This document shows, piece by piece, positions 19,492 to 33,439 of a stretch of DNA of 64,000 bases (its first letter is position 1; the number at the start of each line of letters is the position of its first letter). Origin of the DNA: Helicobacteraceae bacterium (GTDB lineage: Bacteria > Campylobacterota > Campylobacteria > Campylobacterales > Helicobacteraceae). The notes beneath the pieces are model-generated. The model was not told where the DNA came from. It searched no databases and worked only from the letters and a program-made list of their open reading frames with translations. The stretch covers positions 62,001 to 126,000 of the forward strand of contig JAFVZI010000014.1 of the NCBI GenBank assembly GCA_017508245.1, given 5' to 3'. Made by a program: the position numbers and the translations under genes.

Positions 19492-20691
19492 TTATTGAAG
19501 TATTTTAGTTACAACACCAGCACCAACTGTCCTACCACCCCCACGGATAGCAAATCTAGTTCCTTCCTCAAGAGCGATTGGATTTATCAGCTCAACTGTG
19601 ATTTTGATATTATCACCTGGCATAACCATTTCTACGCCACTAGGTAAAGCTATAGAACCTGTTACATCTGTAGTTCTAACATAGAACTGTGGTCTATACC
19701 CATTGAAAAATGGTGTATGGCGTCCACCTTCATCTTTTGATAAAACATACACTTCGCCCTCAAACTTAGTATGTGGAGTAATTGAACCCGGCTTACAAAG
19801 AACCATACCTCTTTCAACTTCTTCTTTTTTAGTACCTCTTAGAAGAACACCTACATTATCACCGGCTTCACCCTTATCTAGTTCTTTTCTAAACATTTCA
19901 ACACCAGTAACTGTAGTTTTTTGAGTGTCTCTAATACCGACAATCTCTACTTCATCACCTACTTTGACAACACCTCTCTCAATTCTTCCTGTTACAACAG
20001 TTCCACGACCAGCGATAGAAAATACATCTTCAACAGGCATCAAAAAAGTTTTTTCAGTATCTCTTTGCGGAGTTGGAATATAAGCATCAACTTCAGCCAT
20101 TAACTTTAGAATCTTTTCACCCCACTCACCAACTTGCCCTGTTTTCGCTTCTTCTAAAGCTTTTAATGCAGAACCAGCTACGATTGGAGTATTGTCACCC
20201 GGAAATTCATATTTGCTTAGCAATTCTCTAACTTCCATTTCAACAAGCTCTAATAACTCAGCATCATCAACCATATCTTGTTTATTCAAGAAAACAACGA
20301 TATATGGAACACCAACTTGTCTTGAAAGTAGAATATGCTCCCTAGTTTGTGGCATAGGACCATCAGCTGCAGATACAACAAGAATAGCCCCATCCATTTG
20401 AGCTGCACCAGTAATCATATTTTTTACATAGTCAGCGTGTCCTGGACAATCCACATGTGCATAGTGGCGATTTTCTGTTTCATACTCAATATGAGAAGTT
20501 GCGATAGTGATACCTCTTTCTTTTTCTTCAGGAGCATTATCTATATTGTCATAGTCTTTTAATTCAGCAAGACCTTTTAATGACAAAACAGCGGAAATAG
20601 CTGCACTTAGTGTTGTTTTACCATGATCGACATGCCCGATTGTTCCAACATTAACATGTGGTTTATTTTTAACAAATTTTTCTTTTGCCAT
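19492..20691 (-). CDS. tuf: Elongation factor Tu
   Basis: EF-Tu delivers aminoacyl-tRNA to the ribosome. It has 399 residues from the ATG at 20691, preceded by AAGGAG. In-frame sequence further upstream belongs to the leader and tRNA region. The G motifs are GHVDHGKTT (G1), RGITIATSH (switch I), DCPGHADY (G3), NKQDM (G4) and SALKAL (G5). Domain II has [13 protein letters not shown] and the C-terminus [13 protein letters not shown]. It is co-transcribed behind four tRNA genes, the same arrangement as the thrU-tyrU-glyT-thrT-tufB operon of E. coli. Confidence 0.99.
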
Positions 20692-20723
20692 GTTTTTCTC
20701 CTTATTAAATTTACATAAAAAAC

Positions 20724-20798
<75 letters not shown>

Positions 20799-22849: not shown

Positions 22850-23872
22850 TTATTTAAAATCTGGTTTTGGAGTATCTAGAGTTTGAGCTGGAAGCATAGG
22901 ATAGATTATCTCTGGCTTTGTGCCTGTTAGAGAATTGAAAAATGTTTCTATCTTTTTTGCATCCGCATCGCTTATTTCAGCACCTAATTGAATACTCGCC
23001 ATTTCTTTTATGGCATCTTTTACATCCCAATATTGACCATTATGGAAATATGGCATAGTCTCTAGTATATTCCTTAATGTAGGTGTTTTTACCATACCAT
23101 CTTTATTGCCACTAAATCCACCAACATTTGCAAATTTATACTCCTTTGCAACTCCAAGCGGTTGCAATGTTCCACCTAAATTTATATCATTATGGCAAGC
23201 AACACAACCTTTGTCTATGAATAATTCTAATCCTTCTTGCTCTTGTGCACTTAAAGCTTTAGTATTGCCACGTAAAAAATCATCATATCTAGACGGCGTA
23301 ACTAGAGTTTTTTCAAATACAGAAATAGCATCCGCAACAGCATCAAAATCTATTTTCACATTGTTACCATAAGCTTTTTTAAATGCTACTACATATTCTG
23401 GTATAGATGTAACCTTTGCTATTATGACCTCTGGCTTTGCATTCATCTCTGGAGCTGCTTGCATAGGACCTTTTGCTTGGTCTTGAAGGTGAGCACTTCT
23501 TCCGTCCCAAAATTGAGATGAATTAAATACCGAGTTATAGACTGTCGGTGAATTTAGATGTTGCGGATTCATAACCCACTTATGTCCGATAGCAGCAGGA
23601 ACAATATCTGTTCCACCTAAACCTAAATTATGACAAGTATTGCAAGAAATCAAATTAGAACCTGAGATTCTAGGGTCAAAATATAGTTTTTTCCCCAACT
23701 CAATTTTTAATTGATTCTGTTTGGTGTTACCTGTGATTTTGTCAAGCTCAGCACCGGTTGGCATAGGCTTTAGTCCTGAATCTAATGCCTTTTTTATCAA
23801 ATCTCCTCCACTAGCACCAAATGCAATTGTTGCACCAAATAAGATTGAACTAACCATAATAGCAATCTTCAT
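22850..23872 (-). CDS. Di-heme cytochrome c peroxidase (periplasmic)
   Basis: This enzyme reduces hydrogen peroxide to water with electrons from c-type cytochromes in the periplasm. It has 340 residues with a cleavable Sec signal (MKIAIMVSSILFGATIAFGA). Two haem-attachment motifs are present: CNTCH near residue 77 and CVACH near 222. Family segments around them include FWDGRSAHLQDQAKGP, MQAAPEMN and TPTLRNILETMPYFHNGQY. It is a single-gene unit, flanked by the decayed region and a divergent fliQ operon. The family (CcpA/MauG-like) is clear; the physiological electron donor is not shown. Confidence 0.93.
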   Translation of the reverse strand: MKIAIMVSSILFGATIAFGASGGDLIKKALDSGLKPMPTGAELDKITGNTKQNQLKIELGKKLYFDPRISGSNLISCNTCHNLGLGGTDIVPAAIGHKWVMNPQHLNSPTVYNSVFNSSQFWDGRSAHLQDQAKGPMQAAPEMNAKPEVIIAKVTSIPEYVVAFKKAYGNNVKIDFDAVADAISVFEKTLVTPSRYDDFLRGNTKALSAQEQEGLELFIDKGCVACHNDINLGGTLQPLGVAKEYKFANVGGFSGNKDGMVKTPTLRNILETMPYFHNGQYWDVKDAIKEMASIQLGAEISDADAKKIETFFNSLTGTKPEIIYPMLPAQTLDTPKPDFK

Positions 23873-25673: not shown

Positions 25674-27191
25674 ATGCAGTATGACGATTTGAATCCACTA
25701 TTTGCGATACTAAACAAAACTCAAATCGAAGTATTAAAAAATGGATATGATATTTTATTATCAAACATCAAGCTAGATTATCAAAGCGATATTAGCGTAG
25801 ATAACACGATATTAGTTGTTGGTGAAAATGAACTAGCAAATGATTTTATAAACAAAACAAAAGATAAATTCAACATCATACAAAAATCATATATTGAAAA
25901 ATATAATGGAATGATTGGTGATTTCATATCCATAGTAGAAAATGAAGAAATACATACTTCACAGATAGTATTTTTCACCAAACTAAAACTAGATTCTAGA
26001 ATCTTAAATAAAACAACACAGCTTGGAATCCACTTTGTAAATAGCTATGAGAATACAGATTCTATGGTTAAAGAGATAGAAAATCTAATTGGTGATTTTA
26101 CATATGAAAATACAATTTTATATGATGAAAACAAATGTCAATACCATCATAGAGATAAAACTATGAATTCATATTGCAGTGAGTGTGAAAGCGTATGTCC
26201 AACATTTGCCATAACAAAAGATGACAAAACAAAAGAATTAAGATTCTCAAATATAGATTGTATATTTTGTGGAAAGTGTGTTGGAGTATGTCCAAGTGGT
26301 GCTATGCAAAAGGCAAACGCCCCGCTTATTGAGATCACAAAAGCGGCACAACTTTATCGAGATAAGATTCCACTTATACTTGGCAAGCAAGACATACAAT
26401 CTTTGGTAGATTCCGATATCGATATAAAAGATTCCGATACAATACCACTTCTCCTTCCAAATATAAATATGCTAAATGAAGTCTATTTAATATCAATATT
26501 GCAAACAACTGGCACGCAATGTATTTTGTATGGAAACATAGAATCTAATTTAAAAGATTCTATTGAATTTATAAATGAACTATATACAAAAGTGCTAAAC
26601 AAAAAGGTGATATATTTACAAAATGAAATAAAATCATATAAAAACTTAGCAATAGAAAATATCACAAAATATCAATACAAAGCAGAATCTAGTGAATTTA
26701 GTAGAGAGATTTTTGGTGAAAGGGTAAAATTTTTAATAAGAGATAATACTTATGGCAGTCTCGCAAATAAACCAAGTATAAAATACACAGATTTAACGAT
26801 TGATGCAAATGCTTGCACACTTTGTATGTCCTGCGTAGAATCTTGTAATACAAATGCTCTCATTAGTTCAAAAGACAATTTTGAGTTATTGTTAAATCCT
26901 TCGCTTTGCACCGCTTGCAATCTATGTGTAGATATTTGCCCAGAATCTGTCATAAAAATGCCACTTAATGGAATGGAATTAAATAATTCATTTTTCACAT
27001 ACAATACAAAAGCAAAAGATAAGCCATTTAAATGCATAGAATGCGGCAAAATCTTTGCAAGTGAGAAATCAATTAAAAAAGTGCAAGGTATGATGTTTCC
27101 AATCTTTAATGATGATGAAATCAAGAAAAAATCGATTCTTTGTTGCAGTGATTGTAAAGTAAAAGTAATGTTTAGAGCAAATAGGATGTGA
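25674..27191 (+). CDS. Polyferredoxin-type 4Fe-4S protein of the formate dehydrogenase locus
   Basis: The chain is 505 residues. A first ferredoxin module (about 150-215) has CSECESVCP and CIFCGKCVGVCPSGA. A second (about 370-425) has CTLCMSCVESCN and CTACNLCVDICPE. A C-terminal four-Cys zinc-ribbon-like pair follows (CIECGK and CCSDCK). The N-terminal 150 residues look like an unrelated domain without cysteines. It has no signal peptide, so it is cytoplasmic. It heads the fdh operon, and similar genes sit beside Sec-type formate dehydrogenases in Campylobacterota. It probably acts in cluster assembly or electron transfer for the enzyme; the exact role is unknown. Confidence 0.8.
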   Translation: MQYDDLNPLFAILNKTQIEVLKNGYDILLSNIKLDYQSDISVDNTILVVGENELANDFINKTKDKFNIIQKSYIEKYNGMIGDFISIVENEEIHTSQIVFFTKLKLDSRILNKTTQLGIHFVNSYENTDSMVKEIENLIGDFTYENTILYDENKCQYHHRDKTMNSYCSECESVCPTFAITKDDKTKELRFSNIDCIFCGKCVGVCPSGAMQKANAPLIEITKAAQLYRDKIPLILGKQDIQSLVDSDIDIKDSDTIPLLLPNINMLNEVYLISILQTTGTQCILYGNIESNLKDSIEFINELYTKVLNKKVIYLQNEIKSYKNLAIENITKYQYKAESSEFSREIFGERVKFLIRDNTYGSLANKPSIKYTDLTIDANACTLCMSCVESCNTNALISSKDNFELLLNPSLCTACNLCVDICPESVIKMPLNGMELNNSFFTYNTKAKDKPFKCIECGKIFASEKSIKKVQGMMFPIFNDDEIKKKSILCCSDCKVKVMFRANRM

Positions 27192-27194
27192 TAT

Positions 27195-27863
27195 ATGCTA
27201 AAGAAAAAACAAGATTCACAAAACAATCAAAAAAAAGCCATAAACAACGCTAGAATCTTATACTATGATTTTTTTGCTGGATTGTTTTTATATGATTTAT
27301 TGATAAATAGAAAAGATTTATTATTAGAGCAAATCAAAATACTAAAAACACAGCCCTTAAATGATGGTGATTTGATATTTTTTGAAGCATTAGAAAATGA
27401 AATCAAGGCTAATGGGATAAAAAATATTTTATTTGAATATACTAGATTTTTTATGCTTCCATTTGACACAAATGCAAATACATCGACAAACAAAAGTGAT
27501 AAAAAAGAAAAAAATAACTGCCAAATAATTCTATATTTATCGTATTATTTAGATGGCACGATAGCAGGTAGCGGATTAATAAAAGCAAAAGAAAAAATAA
27601 GAAAAAGCAAGGTTAGATTGAATGAAAAAGAGTTTAAAGAAAACGAAGAACATATAGGTTTTCTTTTTGTATTCAGTAAATATCTACTGCAAAACAATGA
27701 AGATTCTTTACAAAGCGAAGTCTTTAAAGATTGTATAATGCCAATGAAGGATAAAATTATAGAAAATATAAAAAATAAATATCTAGATTCTATATATTAC
27801 AACATAGCAAATATAATGGAGAGTTTTTTAGATTTTGAGATGGCTTTTAATATAAAAAGTTGA
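27195..27863 (+). CDS. TorD-family chaperone for formate dehydrogenase
   Basis: This 222-residue, mostly helical cytoplasmic protein contains the TorD/DmsD signature region LFEYTRFFMLPFD near residue 75. Members of the family bind the Tat signal of molybdo-enzymes and hold them until cofactor loading is complete. It begins 4 bp after the ferredoxin gene and precedes two Tat-signal proteins, so FdhA is the likely client. Overall similarity in the family is low, and the call rests on the motif and context. Confidence 0.8.
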   Translation: MLKKKQDSQNNQKKAINNARILYYDFFAGLFLYDLLINRKDLLLEQIKILKTQPLNDGDLIFFEALENEIKANGIKNILFEYTRFFMLPFDTNANTSTNKSDKKEKNNCQIILYLSYYLDGTIAGSGLIKAKEKIRKSKVRLNEKEFKENEEHIGFLFVFSKYLLQNNEDSLQSEVFKDCIMPMKDKIIENIKNKYLDSIYYNIANIMESFLDFEMAFNIKS

Positions 27864-28161: not shown

Positions 28162-30978
28162 ATGAGTGAAAATAAAAACATACAAAATAGACGGGCGTTT
28201 CTAAAGCTCTCTCTGCTTGGTTCTGCCATAGGTGCGACCCAAGTCTTAGGTAGTGAAGAAACAAGGGTTTTAAGACAAGCAACTCATCAAGAATTAAAAG
28301 AAAATTTTCCAAATTCTAAAAGAATAAAGACAATATGCACACACTGCTCTGTAGGCTGTGGAATTATTGCTGAAGTTGTTGATGGAATCTGGGTGCGTCA
28401 AGAAGTGGCACAAGATCACCCTGTATCACAAGGTGGACATTGTTGCAAGGGTGCAGATATGATTGATAGAGTTAGAAGCACAACTAGACTTAGATATCCT
28501 ATAGAAAAAGTAAATGGAGTATGGCAAAAGACATCTTGGGACAGCTCTATGGATAAAATTGCCAAAAAAATTACTGAAGTTAGAGAAAAATATGGTCCAG
28601 ATAGCATAATGCTTATTGGAAGTGCTAAAGTTAGCAATGAACAAAGCTATTATGTTAGAAAGTTTGCAGCATTTTTAGGAACAAATAATATAGACCATCA
28701 AGCTAGAATCTGACACTCCCCAACAGTCGCTGGTGTAGCGAATACATTTGGATATGGTGGGATGACAAACCATATAGCTGATATGATTAACTCTAAATTT
28801 ATTTTTATTATTGGTGCAAATCCAGCAGTAAATCACCCTGTTAGTATGGTGCATATATTACGTGCAAAAGAAGCGGGTGCAAAGATCGTATGTGTTGATC
28901 CATACTATAGTAAGACTGCAGCAAAAGCAAATGAATTTATTAGAATAAGAAGTGGAACTGATGTAGCACTAATCTATGGAATGCTAAATGTAATAATAGC
29001 AAACAATCTATATGATAAACAATACCTACAAGACCGCGTATATGGCTATGAAGAAATATTTAAAGAAGCAAAAAAATATACTCCAGAAATCACAGCAGAT
29101 ATAACTGGAATCCCTGCTGATACTATTATTAGAATTGCAAAAGAAATGGCTAGAGCAAAACCAGCAAGTCTAATTTGGAATCAAGGTCTAACACAGCATA
29201 CAGTAGGAACTAACAACACAAGAATTATGCCTATCTTGCAAGCTGTACTGGGAAACATAGGTAAAAAAGGTGGTGGTGTAAACATCCTAAGAGGACATGA
29301 CAATGTTCAAGGTGCTAGTGATATGAACAACCTTTCAGATTCTCTTCCTGGATATTATGGGTTAGGTGAAGGACCTTGGAGACATTTCTGCAAGCATTGG
29401 CATGTAGATTATGAATGGATGAAAAGTCGCTTTAAAAGCAAAGAGATGATGGAAAAGACTGGTTATGCTCTATCAACATGGAGATTTGGTGTAATTGATG
29501 AAGAAAATTATACAAATAATGCGGATACACAAATCAAAGCTCTTATTGTTATAGGTAATGGTATATCAACAACATCTCTACTTGATAAAACAAAAGAAGC
29601 ATTAGACAAGCTAGAGTTAGTAGTATTTATAGATCCTTATGTAAATGATGCAGCAGTTATTACTGATAGAAAAGATAATCTATTCTTGCTACCTGCTGCC
29701 TCACAAATGGAAACAAGTGGCTGTGTGGCTGCAACAAATAGAGCATATCAATGGAGATATCAAGTAATTAAGCCTATGTTTGAATGCAGGGAAGACCACG
29801 AGATTTTATTTGATTTAGCAGACAGACTTGGATTTAAAGAGCAATATCAAAAAGCTCTGTATGAAAATGCTAAAAAAGATGGCAGAAGTGAATTTATATG
29901 GCCAGATGATGCTACTACAGAAATGGCGCAAAGTATTAGAAGTATCGGCTTACAAGGATTAAGTGCAAAAAGACTAAAAGAGCATTGCGATAATTGGCAT
30001 ATGTTTGATAGTGTAACATTAGAAGGTAAAGGACCTATGAAAGGACAGTACTATGCACTTCCTTGGCCATGCTGGAGTGAAAAACACCCGGGGACACCTA
30101 TAATGTATGCTGATGACATACCTGTTATGAAAGGCGGTATGGGCTTTAGAGTGAATTGGGGAATAACATCTCCTGATGGAGCTAGTATGCTAAGTGCCAG
30201 AGGCTTGCCAAATTCAAAACTAAAAGGACACCCTGCTATTACTGCGGACAATATAGAAAATATTCTTGGTATAAAACTAACTAAAGAAGAAAAAGAGCTA
30301 GTAAAAGGGACTACTTTTGCAACTGATAATACAAATATATTGGTTGAAAAAGCTCTAGAAGCTGGTGTATGTCCTTATGGAAATGGAAAAGCTAGAATGG
30401 TTGTTTGGAATTGGTATGATAAGATTCCACTACATAGAGAACCTATACATAGCTTTAGGAATGATTTGATTAAAAAATATCCGACATTCCCAGATAAAAA
30501 AGATTTATTTAGAGCAAATATAAAGTATATATCAAGACAAACAGAAAAAGACTGGAATAAAGAATTCCCATTAAATATGCTAACAGGAAGACTTGTAGCT
30601 CATATGGGAACTGGAACTGAAACTAGAAGTGCAAAATATCTAGCAGAAGTACAAGGTGAAATGTTTATAGAAATACATCCAGATACAGCACTAAATCTAG
30701 GTGTTAGAGATGGTGATATGGTATGGGTACATGGAACATCTGGAACAAAGATTCTAGTAAAAGCTAGACATTCATATAGAGTTGATGAAAATAGCGTATT
30801 CTTACCACAGAATTTCTCTGGTGTTTATTCGGGTGAAAGCCTGCTTAATAAATATCCAAAAGGAACAGAACCTTATGCTATAGGCGAAGCTGTAAGCCTC
30901 ATAACTAGCTATGGATTTGATTACAATACCGCATGTCCTGAAACAAAATGTGGACTATGTAGAATAGAGAAAGCATAA
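28162..30978 (+). CDS. fdhA: Formate dehydrogenase catalytic subunit, selenocysteine-containing
   Basis: This periplasmic molybdenum/tungsten bis-MGD enzyme oxidises formate to CO2. The full chain is 938 residues if the TGA at 28711 (codon 184) is read as selenocysteine: frame and homology continue across it (DHQARI-U-HSPTVAGVANTFGYGG). A Tat signal (QNRRAFLKLSLLG) is at the N-terminus, and a 4Fe-4S site CTHCSVGCG...CCKGAD follows it. The C-terminal MGD-binding region ends CPETKCGLCRIEKA. Frame-by-frame annotation would wrongly split it at 28713. The start ATG follows an AAGGAA-type site. selA, selB, selC and selD must lie elsewhere. Confidence 0.97.
28711..28741 (+). promoter_or_regulatory. 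UGA selenocysteine codon and bacterial SECIS hairpin
   Basis: After the TGA, TCGCT (28727-28731) pairs with AGCGA (28737-28741) around the loop GGTGT, which has the GGU signature recognised by SelB. The first loop G is base 22 counted from the U of UGA, the same spacing as in E. coli fdhF from memory. Confidence 0.85.
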
Positions 30979-30990
30979 GGGAGGTGATAT

Positions 30991-31623
30991 ATGAGTGAAA
31001 TGACTAGTGGTGGTTTTAATGCTACAAATCATGCAAGAATAAAATTTTATTGTGATGAATTAAGATGTATAGATTGCCATGGTTGTGATGTTGCTTGCAA
31101 GGAAGCTCATCACCTACCTGTTGGAGTAAATAGAAGACGTGTAATATCAATAAATGATGGAATAGTTGGTAAAGAAAAATCCATTTCTATTGCTTGTATG
31201 CACTGCTCTGATGCACCTTGTGCACAAGTTTGTCCTGTAGATTGCTTTTATATTAGAGCAGATGGCATCGTATTGCACGATAAAAAAACATGTATAGGAT
31301 GTGGATATTGTTTATATGCATGTCCATTTGGTGCTCCACAATTCCCAAAATCAGATGTATTTGGCAGTAGAGGAACGATGGATAAATGCACATTTTGTGC
31401 TGGTGGTCCAGAGGAAACATTTAGTGATGAAGAATACAAATTATATGGGCAAAATAGAATTGCAGAAGGAAAAGTACCAATGTGTGCTTCAATGTGCTCG
31501 ACAAAAGCATTGCTTGCTGGAAGTAGTGATGAAGTAAGTAATATAATTAGGACAAGAGTTATGAATAAAGGTCAAAATTCACATACTTCATCATATATGT
31601 GGAGCGCACCTTATAAGGACTAA
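30991..31623 (+). CDS. fdhB: Formate dehydrogenase iron-sulfur subunit
   Basis: This 210-residue electron-transfer subunit has Cys clusters for four 4Fe-4S centres. They are CIDCHGCDVACKEAH, CMHCSDAPCAQVCPVDC, CIGCGYCLYACPFGAP and CTFCAGG...CASMCSTKA. It passes electrons from FdhA to the membrane cytochrome. It has no own signal peptide and is expected to ride with FdhA through the Tat system. It is 12 bp after fdhA with a GGGAGGTG ribosome-binding site. Confidence 0.95.
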   Translation: MSEMTSGGFNATNHARIKFYCDELRCIDCHGCDVACKEAHHLPVGVNRRRVISINDGIVGKEKSISIACMHCSDAPCAQVCPVDCFYIRADGIVLHDKKTCIGCGYCLYACPFGAPQFPKSDVFGSRGTMDKCTFCAGGPEETFSDEEYKLYGQNRIAEGKVPMCASMCSTKALLAGSSDEVSNIIRTRVMNKGQNSHTSSYMWSAPYKD

Positions 31624-31632
31624 GGAGATAGT

Positions 31633-32640
31633 ATGAGATTGGTAAAATTATTATTATTTTGTATCATTATGACTATCTCTCAAGCCTCTGAAGACGGCTT
31701 TAAAGGTGCAATAGATTTAGAATATAACAAACATATTTATGGCAAAAATCAGCTAGAAGCTATAAAAAACTGGGGACTTGATACATCTAGTGCAGGTGTA
31801 TCACTGGGTAATACATTAAATTTTGTGGGTGGAAGTATAAACCCACTTACAAGTGGAGAGAAAATTGGTGGAATAAGAGGAATGACTGGACTTGGTGAGC
31901 TATTTACAATACTGCAAAATAAATATTTTAAGATAGTATTTTTTGCAATAATTATATTAGTTCCACTAGCATTTTTTGGGCATTTTATGGTGGTTGGTCA
32001 AAGAAAGTTTAATCATCATCAAAAATTACAAGTATTCTCTAAATTTAATGTCATAGTTCATTGGGGTGCTGCCGTGCCATTTGTAATGATATGTATTACA
32101 GGTTTGATTATGATATTTGGAGCAAATCTCGGCGGTGGAGCATTTGTGAGATTTGCAAGAGATGTGCATGGAATAGCAACTCCAATATTTGTTATTTTTG
32201 GAATCTTTATGTTTGCCATGTGGTTTAAGCAATGTATGTTTAAAAAATATGATATTGATTGGTTTATGATTATGGGTGGATATTTAAGCCAAGAAAATAA
32301 ACCTATACCTGCTGGAAAATTTAATGCTGGTCAAAAAATGTGGTTTTGGATAGCAACAATTGGTGGTGCTATTATGGCGTTAAGTGGTGGGATTATGTTT
32401 TTTCAATACACAGATATTAACACATTAAGGCTAGTAGCTATCATCCATAATATAGTTGGCTTTTTAATCATAGCGATGTTAATAACTCATATTTATATGA
32501 GCTTATTTGCGATAGAAGGTGCGATTGAAGCAATTATCAATGGAAAAATGGGAGAAGAAGAGCTATCAATTTTACATAGCATCTATTATAAAGAATTGGT
32601 AGATTCTGGCAGGCTTAGCTCAATGAGAGTTGCACATTAA
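31633..32640 (+). CDS. fdhC: Formate dehydrogenase cytochrome b subunit
   Basis: The chain is 335 residues. A signal peptide (MRLVKLLLFCIIMTISQA) and a periplasmic stretch of about 70 residues precede four transmembrane helices. Histidines suited to b-haem ligation are seen in KFNVIVHWGAAVP, DVHGIATPIF, VAIIHNIVGF and THIYMSLFAIEG. It anchors FdhAB on the periplasmic face and reduces quinone. The long periplasmic N-terminus is typical of the Campylobacterota/Wolinella type. Confidence 0.94.
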   Translation: MRLVKLLLFCIIMTISQASEDGFKGAIDLEYNKHIYGKNQLEAIKNWGLDTSSAGVSLGNTLNFVGGSINPLTSGEKIGGIRGMTGLGELFTILQNKYFKIVFFAIIILVPLAFFGHFMVVGQRKFNHHQKLQVFSKFNVIVHWGAAVPFVMICITGLIMIFGANLGGGAFVRFARDVHGIATPIFVIFGIFMFAMWFKQCMFKKYDIDWFMIMGGYLSQENKPIPAGKFNAGQKMWFWIATIGGAIMALSGGIMFFQYTDINTLRLVAIIHNIVGFLIIAMLITHIYMSLFAIEGAIEAIINGKMGEEELSILHSIYYKELVDSGRLSSMRVAH

Positions 32641-32641
32641 G

Positions 32642-33439
32642 ATGATCGATGTGCAAAAACAAACAATTTGTGTGCCAATTATCAAAATCAATGATAATGG
32701 CATAGCAAACACAAATGATACGATAGTAAAAGAAGACCGAGTAAATATCTATCTCAATGGGTCAAAAATAATCTCTACAATGTGCATCTTAAAAGACCAG
32801 GATTTTCATTCTATCGGATTTTTAATGAGTGAAGGCGTGATTGAAAATGTAGATGATATAAAAGATATAGAAATATCTAAAGATGGATTAAATGTATATA
32901 TCAATGCAAAAATAAATGATGATAATATATCCAATCTATTTCACGAAAAGACGCTTACTTCTGGCTGTTGTGTAGGGGTGAGTGCGAATTTTGAAGGTAA
33001 AATCATAGAAAAATTTCTATCTCAAAAAGTGGAATTCCACCTAGAACAAATAAGGCATTATATAAGCGAATTCCAAAAAAATACAGATTTATTTTCTAAT
33101 ACTGGTTGCACTCATAAAGCTATGTTATTTTGTGATGATAAAAGTTTTTTAAGTGAAGATATAGGCAGACATAATGCGATTGATAAAGTGTTGGGAAAAG
33201 CACAAATACTAAAGATTGATACAAGCAAGTCGCTTCTTATTGTTAGTGGAAGATTATCTATGGAAATGGTGATAAAATGTGCTATGCATAATGTACCAGT
33301 AGTAATATCAAATGCAGCGACAACAGCACTTGGAATCAAATCTGCACAGAATCTTGGAATAACACTGATTGGATTTGCAAGAAATGGCAATATGAATATC
33401 TATACTCACGGCAATCGTATCATATTGCCTCAAGGATAG
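32642..33439 (+). CDS. fdhD: Sulfur carrier/formate dehydrogenase accessory protein FdhD
   Basis: FdhD transfers sulfur from a cysteine desulfurase to the bis-MGD cofactor, which FdhA needs for activity. From the ATG at 32642 (one base after the fdhC stop) it has 265 residues. A TTG at 32630 inside fdhC is a less likely start. Family segments are TSGCCVGVSANF (cysteine loop), SNTGCTHKA, EDIGRHNAIDKVLGKA and the C-terminal SGRLSMEMVIKCAMHNVPVVIS. It is the last gene of the operon. Confidence 0.95.
   Translation: MIDVQKQTICVPIIKINDNGIANTNDTIVKEDRVNIYLNGSKIISTMCILKDQDFHSIGFLMSEGVIENVDDIKDIEISKDGLNVYINAKINDDNISNLFHEKTLTSGCCVGVSANFEGKIIEKFLSQKVEFHLEQIRHYISEFQKNTDLFSNTGCTHKAMLFCDDKSFLSEDIGRHNAIDKVLGKAQILKIDTSKSLLIVSGRLSMEMVIKCAMHNVPVVISNAATTALGIKSAQNLGITLIGFARNGNMNIYTHGNRIILPQG

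Follow-up and report, generated by a model that had tools for sequence, protein, structure and literature searches.

The window, a stretch of 64,000 nucleotides from a Helicobacteraceae bacterium, contains an operon for a formate dehydrogenase, whose features are listed in Table 1. The frame of fdhA, the gene for the catalytic subunit, is open for 938 residues save for one TGA at codon 184, in the context R-I-U-H-S, and it contains no further stop or frameshift. Translation table 11 splits the gene into two ORFs, one of 183 aa (28162-28713) and one of 738 aa (28762-30978).

Table 1. Features of the formate dehydrogenase operon (positions are those of the window).
Feature	Position	Strand	Evidence
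Polyferredoxin-like protein with 4Fe-4S domains, 505 aa, ending in TGA as an ordinary stop	25674..27191	+	Pfam Fer4 families; stop codon from the sequence
TorD/DmsD-like molybdoenzyme chaperone	27195..27863	+	PF02613 30.9 bits (cut-off 22.2); DmsD model 24.4, below its cut-off of 162
Small Tat-signal protein, 65 aa	27933..28130	+	RRSFLK motif; homologue or small RRxF ORF before fdhA in relatives
fdhA, molybdopterin formate dehydrogenase catalytic subunit, in-frame TGA (predicted Sec184), N-terminal Tat motif RRAFLK	28162..30978	+	Frame, profile matches, PDB alignment, family homology
TGA, almost certainly read as selenocysteine	28711..28713	+	Frame, alignment to Cys of 9vap_A, site comparison in relatives
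Bacterial SECIS apical hairpin, stem TCGCT/AGCGA, loop GGTGT	28727..28741	+	Fold, conservation, pattern search, covariation
fdhB, iron-sulfur subunit (FDH3 beta type)	30991..31623	+	NF038355 332.5 bits (cut-off 240)
fdhC, cytochrome b membrane subunit	31633..32640	+	TIGR01583 182.7 bits (cut-off 115.85)
fdhD, accessory sulfurtransferase	32642..33439	+	NF001943 290.4 bits (cut-off 269)

When the TGA is read through, the product matches the Fe4S4, molybdopterin oxidoreductase and dinucleotide-binding domains of Pfam (PF04879, PF00384 and PF01568), all above the gathering score. Residues 9-938 align to the FdhA protein of PDB entry 9vap_A (949 aa; E 2.1e-267), which has a cysteine where fdhA has the TGA, and the TGA is also aligned with the cysteine codon of 11 cysteine-type fdhA sites. 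The first-pass annotation had placed the TGA at 28711 in the catalytic context of an fdhA frame, and the frame, its R-I-U-H-S context and the cysteine of 9vap_A bear this out. The top-scoring NCBIfam models for FdhA are two formate dehydrogenase alpha equivalogs, neither of which is reached: TIGR01591 (503.9 bits; cut-off 666.25) and the FDH-N model TIGR01553 (360.5 bits; cut-off 814.2). Since the beta subunit scores above the cut-off of the FDH3 beta model (332.5 versus 240 bits), we take FdhA to be a probable FDH3-type protein outside these two equivalogs.

The polyferredoxin, the TorD-like chaperone and the small Tat protein that had been assigned to the operon are all present as ORFs, the first two with profile matches, and fdhB, fdhC and fdhD extend the module beyond the region first described (30991-33439). 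A comparison of 84 loci, in which only matches on the + strand were kept (L155 is therefore blank), revealed that this gene order recurs in many, though not all, of them. In L012 and L014 the polyferredoxin match is located after fdhD, and some of the more distant loci gave no fdhC match. Elsewhere in the window, positions 22850-23872 of the - strand hold a 340-aa ORF with two CxxCH motifs, which by eye resembles a di-haem cytochrome c peroxidase.

Next to the window, the family sample comprised 121 genomes (200 had been requested). FdhA is 89-95% identical, over its full length and through the TGA, to the proteins of four other genomes of the genus. In the family as a whole, 83 near-full-length fdhA matches (>1000 bits) were found, 79 of which (78 genomes) contain a single internal stop, and this stop is always TGA. 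The remaining four lack an internal stop and are of the cysteine type (one each in G116 and G119, two in G120). Every fdhA match compared (L010-L117) has either TGA or a cysteine codon at the site, which for L021 was recognized with a wider motif. The dN/dS values before and after the TGA, calculated against the four congeners, are 0.038/0.036, 0.055/0.070, 0.020/0.036 and 0.082/0.055, the last two pairs being rough because the synonymous distances exceed 1. Purifying selection acts on the part of the frame downstream of the TGA as it does on the part upstream.

A stem of TCGCT (28727-28731) and AGCGA (28737-28741) enclosing the loop GGTGT (28732-28736) had been proposed to follow the TGA; it is present and starts 13 bases after it. 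In the proposed fold check, its energy of -7.2 kcal/mol is unremarkable (z -0.14), with 84 of 200 shuffled sequences folding equally well or better, and fold energy was discarded as evidence for a SECIS element. The pattern TGA-N13-TYGCYGGNGTRGCRA has one match in the 64-kb window and none in any of 100 dinucleotide shuffles, a result that is descriptive because the pattern was composed after the relatives had been seen.

The conservation of the hairpin was counted at 105 of 118 sites, after removal of 13 with an identical 600-nt context. Each of the 94 distinct TGA-type sites retains all five pairs, as compared with 4 of 11 cysteine-type sites; 88 of the TGA sites have Watson-Crick pairs only, and six have one G-U pair. 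The site motif admitted a stop or cysteine followed by HS, so that L021, L155 and L156, which have HA, were missed and examined separately. This wider-motif look, in which the L021 site was set by hand, adds one TGA site with the hairpin kept and two cysteine sites with the hairpin broken. The four cysteine-type sites that still have a fully paired hairpin are L036:8517, L025:6865, L035:3444 and L154:10108; the L036 hairpin is identical to the most frequent SECIS sequence, which would be expected if the change from Sec to Cys was recent.

Two positions of the stem vary among the 94 TGA sites. At pair 2, 64 sites have C-G and 30 have T-A; at pair 5, 86 have C-G, six have T-G and two have T-A, one of these two being the site in the window. 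The protein does not dictate the pairing at these positions, since both partners occupy the third position of their codons (Val and Ala). Judged by how the window fdhA uses Val and Ala codons elsewhere, the chance of pairing is about 0.44, and the Val codon of the stem, GTC, accounts for one of the 53 Val codons elsewhere in the gene. Covariation was scored in an alignment of 47 TGA rows picked by hand (41 distinct sequences) out of the 94 distinct TGA sites. The score is 0.248 against a shuffled mean of 0.141, 100% of the hairpin cells are paired and 15 cells are changed on both sides; none of 500 shuffles matches any of these three values, although the changes are not independent events because the rows are mutually related. 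Six controls in which the hairpin was slid all score lower and pair in 20-80% of cells. The other two of the five measures, pairs changed on both sides (reached by 144 of 500 shuffles) and further pair types (500 of 500), do not beat the shuffles, as expected, since just two hairpin pairs vary. The element has the features of a bacterial SECIS: it lies shortly after the UGA, carries a G in the loop and is conserved by covariation. The distance from UGA to loop is presumably the same as in E. coli fdhF.

The own assembly of the strain (836,459 bases in 14 contigs, 56.9% complete) gave no selA or selD match and no SelB or tRNA-Sec match above cut-off. Four tRNA-Sec matches, all under the Rfam cut-off, were rejected, as ARAGORN assigned them to tRNA-Met, tRNA-Trp, tRNA-Ser(GGA) and a cluster starting with tRNA-Lys. 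The SelB-like matches were rejected as well; the best of these (194.7 bits; cut-off 242.25) lies within the window ORF 19492-20733, which by eye we take to be EF-Tu. By contrast, selA, selB and selD are above cut-off in all four congeners, each of which is 99% complete, and all four have a tRNA-Sec, three above the Rfam cut-off and the fourth, beside selA, by ARAGORN only; the anticodon is TCA in the congeners inspected by ARAGORN.

The first-pass annotation held that an absence of selenocysteine machinery from the genome would refute its reading of the TGA. Taken literally, this absence is what the own assembly presents, and selA, selB, selC and selD missing from 836 kb could mean that the strain truly lost the machinery and that fdhA is a recent relic. 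We consider such a loss highly unlikely. In the closest relative, G113 (FdhA 95% identical), selC, selA and selB lie together. The 18-kb region that contains them has six scattered short matches in the own assembly (40 of 269 candidates scored), and the 15-kb selD region has seven (40 of 227 scored). These counts include the flanking genes, and the longest match is about 150 bases. The G113 fdh region, in contrast, is 82% identical to the window over 8.4 kb (local blastn, a different program from that used for the sel regions), and fdhA itself has not acquired a second stop or a frameshift. With the assembly only 56.9% complete and the sel regions missing together with their neighbours, the absence of the sel genes does not refute the selenocysteine reading. 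It is most simply explained as missing sequence, and we infer that the genes are present in the 43% of the genome that the assembly lacks. An absence from a partial assembly of this kind should not be taken as loss.

The distribution in the family follows the same lines. Among the 78 of 121 genomes with a near-full-length TGA-type fdhA, selD was found in 77, selA in 74, selB in 70 and tRNA-Sec in 55, as compared with 5, 21, 6 and 4, respectively, of the other 43. The single TGA-type genome without selD is the own partial assembly, and under the strict limits, eight of the 78 lack selB and 23 lack tRNA-Sec. The selB, selC and selD counts are lower bounds because strict E-value limits (1e-60, 1e-8 and 1e-20, respectively) were set to exclude relatives of these genes, and Infernal's stricter filters were used for tRNA-Sec. 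SelA was counted at E 0.001, matches below the cut-off included, and the 21 matches outside the TGA-type genomes include 14 genomes (G016-G029) with a short SelA, 13 of them under the cut-off, and with weak FdhA matches only. This short SelA would fit the account, in the consulted parts of PMC4607533, of a degenerate selA in the H. pylori group. One of these genomes, G019 (genus g2), has a tRNA-Sec at L172:1365-1458 (50.4 bits; ARAGORN anticodon TCA) and a short SelA, with no SelB, SelD or full-length FdhA match; the tRNA gene is perhaps a relic selC.

The absence of sel genes from the own assembly would also suit a pseudogene, in which the TGA would stem from a nonsense mutation or an error in sequencing, leaving the second half of fdhA untranslated. 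This is extremely unlikely, given that a single TGA is present in the fdhA of 78 family genomes, the four congeners among them, that dN/dS after the TGA is 0.036-0.070, and that the hairpin covaries. Decoding of the UGA as another amino acid, through a variant code or a suppressor, would leave the frame open just as well, whichever residue the TGA stands for, but has next to no probability: the one TGA of the frame falls at the catalytic site, where TGA and cysteine codons are the only ones seen in the loci L010-L117, the tRNA-Sec has a TCA anticodon in the congeners inspected by ARAGORN, and the polyferredoxin gene ends with TGA, which is therefore an ordinary stop in this operon.

The original proposal that the UGA is read as selenocysteine is supported by homology, by hairpin covariation, by selection acting both before and after the TGA and by the congeners' sel machinery, and on these comparative grounds it is almost certainly correct. 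In full, the gene very probably encodes a selenocysteine-containing, Tat-exported, periplasmic formate dehydrogenase, the UGA of which would be recoded via the SECIS hairpin and SelB. A ribosome would meet the UGA at codon 184 while the hairpin, which starts 13 nt and has its loop 18 nt past the UGA, would bind SelB carrying Sec-tRNA(Sec). The selenocysteine inserted would serve in the active site as a ligand of the molybdenum/tungsten cofactor. Electrons from formate would pass through FdhA, FdhB and FdhC to menaquinone, and FdhD and the TorD-like protein would mature FdhA.

The apparent split gene is accordingly almost certainly one selenoprotein, and the sequence implies that formate respiration in this relative of Helicobacter would depend on selenium. 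The general picture is unchanged, selenocysteine in formate dehydrogenase being already known for the group: fdhA is a new sequence of a described case, ordinary for its family and shared by most relatives of Helicobacter. Cravedi et al. (2015; PMC4607533), in the parts consulted, describe a selenocysteine formate dehydrogenase with a SECIS hairpin in Epsilonproteobacteria. As proposed for the window, these systems have UGA-encoded selenocysteine and an apical hairpin of 5/6 bp a few nt past the TGA, with an invariant loop G and covariation support; they also have the selA/B/C/D machinery, as do the four congeners, and as far as those parts go there is no difference in kind. The same parts report that both the trait and the enzyme are absent from H. 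pylori, in agreement with the suggestion that H. pylori lacks this module. A review citing Shaw et al. 2012 (PMC6682613) states, in the portion seen, that the C. jejuni formate dehydrogenase, a respiratory enzyme like the one proposed here, contains selenocysteine and requires selenium. According to the same portion it depends on FdhTU; a YedE/FdhT-type gene (TIGR04112) is above cut-off in three of the five genomes of the window's genus, and in the own assembly and its closest relative it is matched only below cut-off.

SelD itself, matched in 82 family genomes, carries a single in-frame TGA in 79 of them (L142-L147, L149) and therefore looks like a selenoprotein, as it likewise does in the parts of PMC4607533 consulted. 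In two of the three exceptions, the match starts late.

The small Tat protein has no NCBIfam or Pfam family above cut-off and no significant match among solved structures, and the literature on fdhX and Cj1513c with formate dehydrogenase leaves its role unsettled. FdhX1 is a chaperone in the consulted text of PMC4585668, with a locus number two from that of fdhA2, and may, as far as that text shows, perhaps be the counterpart of the TorD-like gene rather than of the small Tat protein. Of the 78 loci L010-L087, 76 have a small Tat protein or small RRxF ORF directly ahead of an fdhA; the other two, L026 and L041, hold cysteine-type copies of fdhA. Two genomes of another genus, G116 and G119, have a small Tat gene and a TGA-type fdhA in tandem with a second small Tat gene and a cysteine-type fdhA, followed by one shared fdhBCD (L153:6257-12397 and L154:6240-12375). 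Its position before fdhA in 76 of 78 loci and its duplication with this tandem pair make it conceivable, though rather doubtful, that FdhA proteins of this class have the 65-aa protein as an obligate partner whose structure is undescribed. L024 and L025 likewise have a TGA-type and a cysteine-type fdhA in tandem, with no small Tat protein listed ahead of the second, cysteine-type copy. Such tandem copies are possibly selenium-dependent and selenium-free isozymes.
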